DNA of 64,000 nt, taken from positions 124,001-188,000 of the forward strand of contig JAOABC010000001.1 in assembly GCA_026418535.1 (NCBI GenBank), given 5' to 3'. The notes under the pieces are model-generated. The model did not search any database, was not told the origin of the DNA, and saw nothing but the letters and a program-made list of their open reading frames with translations. This document shows positions 10,049 to 64,000 of this stretch, in pieces. The DNA is from Hydrogenothermaceae bacterium (GTDB lineage: Bacteria > Aquificota > Aquificia > Aquificales > Hydrogenothermaceae). The translations under genes and the position numbers were made by a program. Positions within the stretch are counted from its first letter, which is position 1. Each line of letters begins with the position of its first letter.

Positions 10049-11238
10049 CTCGCTAATCTTTTGATGTTTCTTATAGCCTGTCTTATCCTTTTCTCATTCT
10101 CAACTACCGCAAACCTAACATAACCTTCTCCATGCTCACCAAACCCAATCCCTGGAGCTACAGCTACCTTGGCTTCTCTCAGTAGCATCATACTGAAATC
10201 TATAGAGCCCATATGAGAGAACTTCTCAGGGATTTTTGCCCAGAGGAACATCGTAGCCCTCGGTTTACCTACTTTCCATCCTGCAGCGTTCAACCCTGCT
10301 ACAAGTATATCCAGTCTTTTACTGTACGTATCAGCTGCTTTTTGGACTATAGAGTAGTCGCTCTCTAGCGCTATTATACTTGCAACTTGTATAGGTGTAA
10401 ACATACCATAATCAAGATAACTCTTTAACCTTTTAAGGTTATAAACCAGAGTTTCGTTACCAAGTATAAAACCAACTCTCCATCCTGCCATGGAGAAACC
10501 TTTCGTCATAGAGTAAGTCTCTACAGCTACATCCTTAGCACCTTCTACCTGGAGTATACTTGGGGCTTTATAGCCGTCAAAGCATAAGTCTCCGTAAGCA
10601 AGGTCATGGATGATCCACAATCCTTTTTTCTTAGCAAACTTTACTACTTCCTTAAAGAAGTCTAAAGATACTGTCATAGTGGTTGGGTTGTTTGGGAAGT
10701 TTAGTATCAGGACTTTTGCCTCCGGATAGGAGTCTTCGTAGCTATCGTATATATTCTTCAAAAACAGCTCCTGTTTTTCCTCCTCTGAGCCCTCGAAAGG
10801 TAGAGGGACAGTCAGAACACTGGCACCAGCAATAACTGGAGCATAGTAATGGATAGGGTACCTTGGACTTGGAACCATAGCTATGTCTCCCGGTTCTAAC
10901 ATAGCAAGCATCAAGTGAGAAAGACCTTCTTTTGAACCTATCGTCATTATGGCTTCCTTGTCAGGATCCAACTCTACACCGTATCTGTTCCTGTAAAAAT
11001 CACAGATAGCCTTTCTTAGTCTCGGTATACCTTGAGACATAGAGTATCTGTGTGTTGTTTTCTTTTTAGCAGACTCACAGAGTTTCTCTATTATATGTTG
11101 GGCTGGTGGTAAGTCCGGATTGCCCATCCCAAAGTCTATTATATCTTCTCCCTCTTTTCTCATCTTAGCTTTCAGGTCATTTACCACAGCAAAAACATAC
11201 TGAGGAAGTCTCTTTATCCGTGGAAACTCTTCGGGCAT
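10045..11238 (-). CDS. Class I/II aminotransferase (AlaC-like)
   Basis: 397 residues, fold-type I PLP enzyme. Motifs: FGMGNPDLPP near the N-terminus, NFPNNPTT (180-187), the PLP contacts HDLAYGDL, the Schiff-base Lys246 in SMTKGFSMAGW, and an Arg-rich C-terminus. The pattern is closest to the AlaC glutamate-pyruvate aminotransferase and LL-diaminopimelate aminotransferase-like group; I cannot separate these by eye. AGAGGTG lies just upstream of the ATG. Being first in an operon with two peptide-type permeases is unusual and may only reflect co-regulation. Confidence 0.85.
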   Translation of the reverse strand: MPEEFPRIKRLPQYVFAVVNDLKAKMRKEGEDIIDFGMGNPDLPPAQHIIEKLCESAKKKTTHRYSMSQGIPRLRKAICDFYRNRYGVELDPDKEAIMTIGSKEGLSHLMLAMLEPGDIAMVPSPRYPIHYYAPVIAGASVLTVPLPFEGSEEEKQELFLKNIYDSYEDSYPEAKVLILNFPNNPTTMTVSLDFFKEVVKFAKKKGLWIIHDLAYGDLCFDGYKAPSILQVEGAKDVAVETYSMTKGFSMAGWRVGFILGNETLVYNLKRLKSYLDYGMFTPIQVASIIALESDYSIVQKAADTYSKRLDILVAGLNAAGWKVGKPRATMFLWAKIPEKFSHMGSIDFSMMLLREAKVAVAPGIGFGEHGEGYVRFAVVENEKRIRQAIRNIKRLAR

Positions 11239-61396: not shown

Positions 61397-62245
61397 TCAG
61401 AAGGATATCATGGAGGATAGTCTTTCTAGCTCTCCGGTCATTATAAGTATACCTATCAGGATGAGCAGAATACCACCTACTATCTCTATTACTAAGAAGT
61501 ACCTTCTGATGAAGTTGAAAAACTTAAAGAAGATGTTTATAGCTGCTGCTGTGATGATGAACGGTATACCCAAACCAAGGGAGAAGGAGAATAAGAGTAA
61601 GGTTCCCTGTATCACAGTTTCCTGTTGTGAAGCCATAAGTAGAATTGCTCCCAATATTGGACCTATACAAGGTGTCCATCCAAGTGCAAAGGCAGTACCT
61701 ACAAAAAAGGCTCCTACAATACCAGGAGGTTTTTTCTGTATCTCTGTATTCTTTTGAACATACAGGAGTTTATATAATCCAGAAAAGTAGAATATGTCAA
61801 GGATAATAGAGAGGATGAAGATAAAGAATCCATTACCGAAGATCTCCTTCGAAGTAAAAAAAACTATCCCATAGAGTGTAAGAGCTAAAGTCGTGAAACC
61901 TATCAGTATCTTTTTAGCTTTATCAGACTGGAGTATGCCAGTGAAGTGTACACCGAGGATGATAACGATGATTGCAGCTATCTTTGATATTATCCATCTG
62001 TATTCCTGTAGAAATGAACCAACTGCTGTAGATGCTGCTCCCATCAATGTAAAGATGAGGGAAAAACCCAAGACAAAAGCTATAGCAGACATCACAACCT
62101 TCCAGTCTATACCTTTTCTGTCTGAGGCTACAGATACGCCGGATATGTAAGCTATATAGCCTGGGATTATAGGTAGAACACATGGGGATAGAAAAGCAAT
62201 TATTCCACCTAGAAAAGCTGCTAGTAAGGTTACATTTTCCATCAA
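61397..62245 (-). CDS. ccdA: Cytochrome c biogenesis CcdA/DsbD-type membrane protein
   Basis: 282 residues with about eight TM helices. PCVLPIIPGYIAYISGVS holds the first redox Cys (in LSPCVLP) and ALGWTPCIGPILGAIL the second, as in CcdA/DsbD. It carries electrons from cytoplasmic thioredoxin to periplasmic thiol carriers. It overlaps the TlpA-like gene by 4 bases and so forms one transcript with its likely partner. Confidence 0.93.
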   Translation of the reverse strand: MMENVTLLAAFLGGIIAFLSPCVLPIIPGYIAYISGVSVASDRKGIDWKVVMSAIAFVLGFSLIFTLMGAASTAVGSFLQEYRWIISKIAAIIVIILGVHFTGILQSDKAKKILIGFTTLALTLYGIVFFTSKEIFGNGFFIFILSIILDIFYFSGLYKLLYVQKNTEIQKKPPGIVGAFFVGTAFALGWTPCIGPILGAILLMASQQETVIQGTLLLFSFSLGLGIPFIITAAAINIFFKFFNFIRRYFLVIEIVGGILLILIGILIMTGELERLSSMISF

Positions 62246-62715
62246 CCTTCTCCTAATCCTTTCTTTATAGCCTGTTCAAACTTCTCCATACTCTGGGGAC
62301 CTATAAATATCTTTACTATGTTATTATTTTTACCTATTATGTATGTTATAGGTGTCCCTATTATTCTGTACTTTTCCATAACATCACTGTTTCCGAACAA
62401 AACTGGAAGATTAAAACTCCACTCTTGCTTTATAGATGGAATATACTTTGGATTGTCAGTATCTATTACAACAGCATAGAACTTAACTCTATCTTTGTAC
62501 TTTGGATATATAGAGCTACTAATCTGTGGTAGCTCATCTTTACACGAATGACAAGTGGTAGCCCAGAATGTCAAGAATACCACCTCACTTTTTAGTTTAG
62601 AAAGCTCTACCACCTTCCCACTTTCATCCTTTAGAGCAAAATTAGGTGCCTGTATGGCAAAACTGTCTAATACTACTGTTAGATTTAAGATTAGAGTTAG
62701 AAAAAGTTTTTTCAA
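62242..62715 (-). CDS. TlpA/ResA-like periplasmic thioredoxin
   Basis: 157 residues. Signal peptide ~1-21, then a thioredoxin-like redoxin fold with active site FWATTCHSCKDELPQ (CHSC) and the cis-Pro in IIGTPITYII. It would reduce apocytochrome c or copper-site thiols in the periplasm. AAAGGAGG precedes the ATG. Operon with ccdA; probably linked functionally to petC and the SCO protein. Confidence 0.92.
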   Translation of the reverse strand: MKKLFLTLILNLTVVLDSFAIQAPNFALKDESGKVVELSKLKSEVVFLTFWATTCHSCKDELPQISSSIYPKYKDRVKFYAVVIDTDNPKYIPSIKQEWSFNLPVLFGNSDVMEKYRIIGTPITYIIGKNNNIVKIFIGPQSMEKFEQAIKKGLGEG

Positions 62716-62789: not shown

Positions 62790-63641
62790 TTGGAAAGAAA
62801 CTTTTTTGTTAAATCTCACGGTCTTGGAAATGGTTATATAGTTATAGATTCTGATTATATAACCTTCCAGATAAAGCCCGACCTGGTCAAAAAAATGTGC
62901 GATGTTCACTATGGTATAGGAAGTGATGGTCTGCTTGTTAAGTATCCATCGGATGTTGCGGATTTTAAACTTAGGATATTCAATCCGGATGGCTCTGAAG
63001 CAGAGAAGAGTGGAAACGGACTGAGGATATTCTGTAAGTTTCTCTACGATTATAAATACACAACAGAGGATGAATTCACTGTAGAGACAAAGGGAGGTAT
63101 TGTAAAGGCCAAGATAGAGGAGAAGGAAAAAGGTAAAGCACGAGTTATAACTGTAGATATGGGAAAAGCGACCTTTAAACCTGAGGAAGTACCTGTAAAC
63201 ATAGAGAAGGATGAATGTTTAGACATGGATTTAGAGGTTGGTGGTAGGTCTTTCAAGGTAAACTGTGTGTCCGTTGGTAATCCTCACTGTGTGGTGATAG
63301 TGGATGAGTTAAATGAAGAGGATATAAAAAGGTTCGGTCCATTAATAGAAAACCATCCACTATTTCCTAACAGAACTAATGTCCAATTTGTAAAACTTCT
63401 CTCAAAGGAAGAGGTTAGTATACTCATATGGGAAAGGGGAGCAGGGTTTACCCTCGCCTCTGGAAGTTCTTCCTGTGGTGTTGCTTCTGTGATGGTGAAA
63501 AAAGGTCTTACAGATAGACGGATAAAGGTTAATATGCCCGGGGGTACCCTTACTATAGAGGTAGATCCTAACTTTAACATCCGGATGACGGGAGAGGTTA
63601 GGGAGGTCTGTAGAGGTGTCCTGAGTGATGAGTTCTTCTAA
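62790..63641 (+). CDS. dapF: DapF-like epimerase with both catalytic Cys replaced by Ser
   Basis: 283 residues, TTG start. Substrate-contact motifs of diaminopimelate epimerase are kept: HGLGNG, NPDGSE, GNPHCVVIV, NRTNVQF and ERGAGFT. The two catalytic motifs differ: CGNG is SGNG (AEKSGNGLR) and ACGSGAC is ASGSSSC, so both acid/base cysteines are serine, each a single base change from Cys. A normal two-thiol racemisation mechanism is therefore unlikely. It may act on another substrate, use another mechanism, or bind only. AGAGCAGGA lies upstream of the TTG. Confidence 0.8.
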   Translation: MERNFFVKSHGLGNGYIVIDSDYITFQIKPDLVKKMCDVHYGIGSDGLLVKYPSDVADFKLRIFNPDGSEAEKSGNGLRIFCKFLYDYKYTTEDEFTVETKGGIVKAKIEEKEKGKARVITVDMGKATFKPEEVPVNIEKDECLDMDLEVGGRSFKVNCVSVGNPHCVVIVDELNEEDIKRFGPLIENHPLFPNRTNVQFVKLLSKEEVSILIWERGAGFTLASGSSSCGVASVMVKKGLTDRRIKVNMPGGTLTIEVDPNFNIRMTGEVREVCRGVLSDEFF

Positions 63642-64000
63642 GAGGATATTCATTGGGACTTTTATAGAGATAGAGGACATAGATATACACCTCACACACA
63701 TAAAGAAAGACTTTGGAGGAGTCATTTCCGGAAGATGGGTAAAAAGAGAGAATCTACACCTGACTTTTAAATTTATCGGGAATGTTCCATTAGAGAATGT
63801 TTGGATTATAAAGGAGAAACTGTCTAACCTTCTAGATATAGAGATTCCAGTAGTTATGGTTTTAAAAGGGGTAGGGACATTTCCAAACCCCAGAGAGCCA
63901 AAGGTTCTATACATAAAAGTAGAACCAAATCAGGTTTTGATCCGTATAAAGGAAGAAGTAGAGAATGTCCTATTCAGTCTAGGTTTTAGCAAGGACATAA
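63628..64000 (+). CDS. thpR: RNA 2',3'-cyclic phosphodiesterase, N-terminal part (runs off window)
   Basis: The start ATG 63628 lies in the last 14 bases of the DapF-like gene; the frame is open to the window end (~124 codons). KRIFIGTFIEIED and the first HxTx motif in NLHLTFKFIGNV identify the 2H phosphoesterase family (LigT/ThpR). The second HxTx motif lies outside the window. GFSKDI at the end fits the usual core. Confidence 0.88.
   Translation, partial: MSSSKRIFIGTFIEIEDIDIHLTHIKKDFGGVISGRWVKRENLHLTFKFIGNVPLENVWIIKEKLSNLLDIEIPVVMVLKGVGTFPNPREPKVLYIKVEPNQVLIRIKEEVENVLFSLGFSKDI

Follow-up and report, generated by a model that had tools for sequence, protein, structure and literature searches.

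To our knowledge, the accepted view is that diaminopimelate (DAP) epimerase (DapF) needs a thiol–thiolate pair, and all relatives studied so far use sulfur. As an acid, the hydroxyl group of serine is much weaker than a thiol. In the closed form of Anabaena DapF, DAP is contacted by Asn13, Asn66, Asn164, Asn197, Glu215, Arg216, Gly225, and Thr226; Asn13 contacts the reacting amino group, and the backbone amide of Gly227 contacts the catalytic sulfur (PMC12039745). No basic residue is reported to lie within 4 Å of the cysteines in the Cys-type DapF (PMC12039745). The activity of Chlamydia DapF depends on its cysteines (PMC5885031), and most of the turnover of histidine racemase (HisR) was lost in its C67S and C209S mutants (PMC11602996). 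In the proline racemase superfamily, the 4-hydroxyproline 2-epimerase B9JQV3 (Avi_0518), which has the pair Ser93/Cys236, is a working two-base epimerase, and a Ser/Thr member is a dehydratase (PMC4113996).

A DapF homologue with two serines at the catalytic positions

The window, i.e., the whole stretch of 64,000 nucleotides that was analysed, comes from a genome of the Hydrogenothermaceae, a family of hot-spring bacteria, and contains an open reading frame for a DapF homologue (Table 1). The encoded protein scored 260.1 bits with TIGR00652, the DapF equivalog model (cut-off 114.65). Its scores were below the cut-offs of the PhzF isomerase model TIGR00654 (22.3 bits, cut-off 76.2), the bifunctional DAP epimerase/glutamate racemase model NF038284 (92.9 bits, cut-off 350), and the hydroxyproline dehydratase model (19.8 bits, cut-off 550). 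Instead of the two catalytic cysteines of DapF, the protein has Ser74 and Ser224. The first-pass annotation had read serine at both catalytic positions from the motifs SGNG and ASGSS, and this reading was correct; of the two codon positions that it gave with the motifs, however, 63010–63012 lies one base late and 63472–63474 corresponds to Ser228, which is not a catalytic residue.

Table 1 Positions of the features discussed in the window
Feature	Position	Strand	Remarks
Aminotransferase gene, LL-DAP aminotransferase / alanine transaminase group	10057..11220	-	TIGR03540, 422 bits (cut-off 593)
dapF homologue, Ser/Ser diaminopimelate epimerase type	62790..63641	+	ORF, TTG start, 283 aa
Asn14	62829..62831	+	Corresponds to Anabaena Asn13; invariant in the clade
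Asn65	62982..62984	+	Corresponds to Anabaena Asn66, distal DAP contact; invariant in the clade
Lys73	63006..63008	+	Adjoins Ser74; clade-specific; Met in nearly all Cys/Cys DapFs
Ser74	63009..63011	+	Codon AGT, in EKSGNG; site of the first catalytic Cys (Cys75, Anabaena DapF)
GNPHC motif with Asn164	63276..63290	+	Distal carboxylate contact; Asn164 invariant in the clade
Asn197	63378..63380	+	Distal carboxylate contact; invariant in the clade
Glu215-Arg216	63432..63437	+	Distal amino and carboxylate binding; invariant in the clade
Phe220	63447..63449	+	Aromatic site of the clade
Ser224	63459..63461	+	Codon TCT, in TLASGSSSC; site of the second catalytic Cys (Cys224, Anabaena DapF)
Ser227	63468..63470	+	Takes the place of Gly of Cys/Cys DapFs
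ThpR-like RNA cyclic phosphodiesterase gene	63628..64000	+	ORF; start overlaps the dapF stop; truncated by the window end

The downstream gene, whose product we take to be ThpR-like from reading the sequence by eye, adjoins dapF in 8 of 29 Hydrogenothermaceae loci (tblastn). The genes at 62242–62715 and 61397–62245 are divergent from dapF and, also named by eye, presumably encode a TlpA-like protein with a thioredoxin domain and a CcdA-like membrane protein. Residue 15 of the window protein (62832–62834) is Gly; at this position, the other Ser/Ser rows without a gap (135) all have Asp or Glu (HGLGND/E), and the residue of a genus mate of the window organism is Asp.

Structure and active-site residues

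The AlphaFold2 model of the window protein (pLDDT 95.3, pTM 0.89) was composed of the two pseudo-symmetric domains of the DapF fold, and its best Foldseek matches were DapF structures with TM-scores of about 0.8–0.9. Among solved structures, DapF enzymes were the closest and cyanobacterial 9mro was the best; the fold and length of the window protein are common to DapF from Anabaena (9mro), H. influenzae (1gqz/1bwz), E. coli (4ijz), and Arabidopsis (3ejx). The structural matches included H. influenzae DapF C73S (2q9h) and C217S (2q9j), in which serine was engineered at the same positions. The identity of proline racemase superfamily structures to the model was about 12–16% (Foldseek). In the model, Ser74 and Ser224 are helix N-caps, located directly before helices 75–87 and 225–237, and the catalytic cysteines of DapF occupy these same helix-dipole positions.

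All eight DAP-contact positions are kept in the window protein (Asn14, Asn65, Asn164, Asn197, Glu215, Arg216, Gly225, and Ser226), and these residues are invariant across the clade of Ser/Ser proteins described below, except for Ser/Thr at position 226. This confirmed that the substrate-binding Asn, Glu-Arg, and GNPHC motifs are retained, as first annotated. The protein resembles DapF in its DAP-contact residues and in the N-cap placement of the active pair, as well as in its pathway context, whereas it differs from the sampled Cys/Cys enzymes in the pair itself and at several surrounding positions. In a comparison with Cys/Cys sequences mostly from Aquificota and Bacteroidota, position 73 was Lys in 135 of 137 Ser/Ser rows and Met in 116 of 120 Cys/Cys rows, and position 227 was Ser in 137/137 and Gly in 119/120, respectively. 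Position 220 was aromatic (Tyr/Phe/Trp) in all Ser/Ser sequences and Glu in most of the Cys/Cys sequences sampled, and Pro66 was a further clade-specific change. Given this sampling, the clade, not the serines, may account for some of the differences.

Lys73 deserves attention, given that the sulfurs of the Cys-type site have no basic residue nearby. The protein might still be a DAP epimerase in which the two serines do not both act as bases; Lys73, water, or another residue would deprotonate the substrate by a one-base or water-relayed mechanism, with the serines mainly binding or positioning the substrate. The occurrence of Lys in nearly all Ser/Ser rows against Met in Cys/Cys rows agrees with this explanation, as do the lack of a basic residue within 4 Å of the cysteines in Cys-type DapF (PMC12039745) and the absence of Lys73 from a natural Cys/Ser gene. 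However, two Ser/Ser rows, which represent one gene counted twice (L148/L231), have Ile73. Lys73 is unlikely to be essential, since Asn is found in the Cys/Ser gene and Ile in one Ser/Ser gene, and we consider a Lys73- or water-based mechanism to be quite unlikely.

Distribution of the Ser/Ser clade

Serine occupied both sites in all 32 typed Hydrogenothermaceae genomes, which answered the question of whether the pair is conserved among homologues of this family. The DapF homologues read in other Aquificota families (f2–f5) were Cys/Cys. The window-type protein showed 33–39% identity to the other Aquificota DapFs compared and was placed in a different part of the tree; an origin from the Cys/Cys DapF of Aquificota was therefore rejected.

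The Hydrogenothermaceae alignment, used as the query against 84,980 species genomes, yielded at least 80 loci, although the scan pattern WERGAG[YF]T favours the Ser/Ser clade and the counts do not measure prevalence. Among the matches listed, all but one (L151) were Ser/Ser, the motifs PDGSEAEKSGNGLRIF and WERGAGxTxASGSSSC were near-invariant, and the hosts belonged to Aquificota, Bacteroidota, Bacillota, Ignavibacteriota, Dadabacteria, Methylomirabilota, Rokubacteria, Dictyoglomota (Dictyoglomus), Chloroflexota, and FCPU426. In the combined set, which includes some loci twice, 137 of 139 clade rows were Ser/Ser and the other two (L151 and L196) were one Cys/Ser gene present twice. This gene (L151:5-850, from the Bacteroidales MAG G143) is a natural Cys/Ser member within the Ser/Ser clade, with the motifs ENCGNG and ASGSSSC; it is the sole DapF of its genome and has Asn, not Lys, at position 73.

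When 248 genomes were sampled evenly from the phylum to which one Ignavibacteriota carrier belongs, only two matches had high scores and one of these was the query genome, indicating that the clade is scattered outside Hydrogenothermaceae. A tree of 110 sequences, constructed by a quick method without bootstrap after removal of the two catalytic columns, placed all 66 Ser/Ser rows and the Cys/Ser row on one branch (SH-aLRT 100). The Ser/Ser pattern is consistent with a single origin and subsequent horizontal transfer.

Another DapF domain, L226 (G141:C53:16523-17344), has Phe at the first catalytic site and Cys at the second (EMFGNALRC and ACGTGAC); the open frame that contains it spans 1354 codons. 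Its host is a Clostridiales MAG that also has one Cys/Cys and one Ser/Ser DapF.

Ser/Ser and Cys/Cys genes in Flavobacterium

A DapF match was detected in 78 of 81 Flavobacterium genomes. In two of the 78, including that of F. panacis, the only DapF is encoded by a Ser/Ser gene, which replaces the Cys/Cys DapF; these two genes share 93.5% identity. All 18 further Flavobacterium DapFs that were read were Cys/Cys and showed 23–29% identity to the Ser/Ser gene, and the remaining 58 genomes were told apart from the two by lower model scores and shorter matches.

Serine codons and selection

A single base change can convert a codon of the type AGY or TCY into a Cys codon, and two base changes are needed from AGY to TCN. 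In the clade, the codons for Ser74 were mostly AGY and those for Ser224 were all TCN. Three Rokubacteria loci (L162, L172, and L179) have TCC or TCG for Ser74, not AGY; serine was retained across this switch of codon family. Between genus mates, dN was 0.13 and dS was 2.2, values that are qualitative only because dS is saturated. The Ser/Ser dapF gene is under strong purifying selection.

The use of two different serine codon families at the two sites also argues against a sequencing or assembly error, whose probability we regard as negligible. The first-pass annotation had named cysteines in close relatives, together with a read error, as the outcome that would overturn its reading. The family was entirely Ser/Ser, and an error was rejected since every family genome that was typed, as well as unrelated isolates and MAGs, carries the same pair.

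Context of the lysine and meso-DAP pathways

The source genome, which is 99.94% complete, has only one DAP_epimerase gene, and the suggested second true DapF was not found there. In 29 of 38 non-Aquificota carriers, the clade member is likewise the sole DapF, and the other nine have another DapF too, mostly Cys/Cys. DAP dehydrogenase was not detected over the cut-off in 42 genomes (the 29 sole-DapF carriers and 13 family genomes); weak matches of 18–31 bits to its model, mainly in N-terminal stretches, look like other dehydrogenases. LysA was present in 40 of these 42 genomes and MurE was over the cut-off in 40, the exceptions being the same two genomes, both MAGs. The source genome has LysA and a MurE with the motif DNPR, neither of which adjoins dapF, and DNPR was found in MurE of every Hydrogenothermaceae genome read. 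The substrate of LysA is meso-DAP, and we take DNPR to be the motif of the meso-DAP-adding MurE. Each of the eight Hydrogenothermaceae genomes tested had one MurI-type and one Alr-type racemase, so that no spare known racemase was evident in them; the source genome has just one racemase of each type. The lack of a DAP dehydrogenase and of further racemases disfavours the earlier idea that meso-DAP is made in another way, as far as known routes are concerned.

It is also conceivable that the peptidoglycan contains LL-DAP or another diamino acid, that no epimerase is needed, and that the gene is drifting. While the literature searched contained no analysis of Hydrogenothermaceae peptidoglycan, this is very improbable in view of the DNPR motif in MurE of the source genome and every family genome read, the presence of LysA, which acts on meso-DAP, and the strong purifying selection on the gene.

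With regard to gene neighbourhoods, dapL (TIGR03542 type) and/or lysA was located no more than three genes away in 29 of 75 placeable loci, all 29 of them in Bacteroidota. In the two Ignavibacteriota loci, an aminotransferase from the same cluster was encoded directly downstream; it fell below the identity filter of the 75-locus count. In Hydrogenothermaceae, dapF does not adjoin lysine genes, and the neighbourhoods in Clostridium, Neobacillus, and Eubacterium carriers were without lysine-pathway context. The aminotransferase encoded in the window, for which the best model was alanine transaminase, likewise below the cut-off, is a possible upstream pathway enzyme of uncertain assignment. Overall, the lysine/meso-DAP pathway context consists of the dapL and lysA neighbours in Bacteroidota and of LysA and the DNPR-type MurE in the source genome.

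These data bear on the proposal in the first-pass annotation that the serines signify a new activity or a dehydratase/isomerase-type change. The protein would then have lost its epimerase activity and acquired another role, either with a different substrate, as a dehydratase or isomerase, or as a non-catalytic protein, and meso-DAP would be supplied by an unrecognised enzyme. Two cysteines are needed in known DapFs, same-fold relatives with other residue pairs, such as PhzF and 3-hydroxyproline dehydratase, differ in activity, and some carriers keep another, mostly Cys/Cys, DapF, all of which is in line with such a loss. On the other hand, most carriers have no other DapF, the gene stands alone in two Flavobacterium genomes, no DAP dehydrogenase was detected, only one MurI-type and one Alr-type racemase were present in the eight family genomes, dapL and lysA adjoin the gene in many Bacteroidota, and all DAP contacts are kept. 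We therefore judge the loss of epimerase activity to be unlikely, and a new activity to be less likely than a true DAP epimerase.

Discussion

It is likely, on the evidence of sequence and genome context, that the window protein is the DAP epimerase of the organism, with a Ser/Ser acid/base pair replacing the two cysteines. This reading is favoured because the protein is the sole DapF in a genome with LysA and a DNPR-type MurE, DAP dehydrogenase was not detected, dapL and/or lysA lies close to related genes in many Bacteroidota, the DAP contacts are kept, and the Ser/Ser gene is the only copy in two Flavobacterium genomes. Purifying selection, the codon switch in Rokubacteria, the helix N-caps, and the precedent of B9JQV3 point in the same direction. 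Somewhat more cautiously, we think it fairly probable that the whole group is a widespread clade of thiol-free, cofactor-independent epimerases, in which the Ser/Ser pair would abstract and return the alpha proton of DAP.

In the proposed mechanism, the window protein would convert LL-DAP to meso-DAP for lysine and peptidoglycan. Two facing helices would each present one of the serine hydroxyls at the N-terminus, and the two hydroxyls would act as the acid/base pair of a two-base mechanism. The helix dipoles, Lys73, and Ser227 are possible helpers that may lower the pKa of the serines or stabilise the alkoxide and carbanion.

The following points count against a Ser/Ser epimerase: the HisR mutants, the Chlamydia DapF, the low acidity of serine, the Ser/Thr dehydratase, and the second DapF in 9 of 38 carriers. 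The HisR mutants sit in Cys-adapted sites, and a natural clade with further changes may differ from them. Similarly, 2q9h and 2q9j carry single changes in a Cys-adapted site, whereas the natural clade has both serines and the surrounding differences. The hydroxyproline dehydratase has the same fold and likewise lacks a Cys pair (Cys/Thr in others) (PMC4113996), but it dehydrates hydroxyproline, whereas the window protein retains the DAP-binding residues and the lysine-pathway context. B9JQV3 shares the two-domain racemase fold and uses Ser as one of two bases in a 1,1-proton transfer; unlike the window protein, it has only one Ser, with Cys as the partner, and it acts on another substrate in another subfamily. 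The first-pass annotation was probably too strict in requiring two thiols for the mechanism, since this Ser/Cys member of the proline racemase superfamily works as a two-base epimerase (PMC4113996).

In the open-access literature searched, which omits most subscription papers, no earlier description of a Ser/Ser DapF was found. The fold, the binding site, and the pathway are those already known for DapF, and the new element is the catalytic pair. The substitution is easily overlooked because Ser/Ser proteins pass the automatic DapF model. A natural comparison set is provided by Flavobacterium, which has genes of both types, and by the one clade member with Cys/Ser. For drug design, Cys-reactive inhibitors of DapF would be expected to miss Ser/Ser enzymes. 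The Ser/Ser protein probably functions as an enzyme in which oxygen takes the role that sulfur has in the studied relatives. If this is true, a thiol would not be required for the epimerisation of DAP, and the rest of the active site would supply most of the catalytic power.
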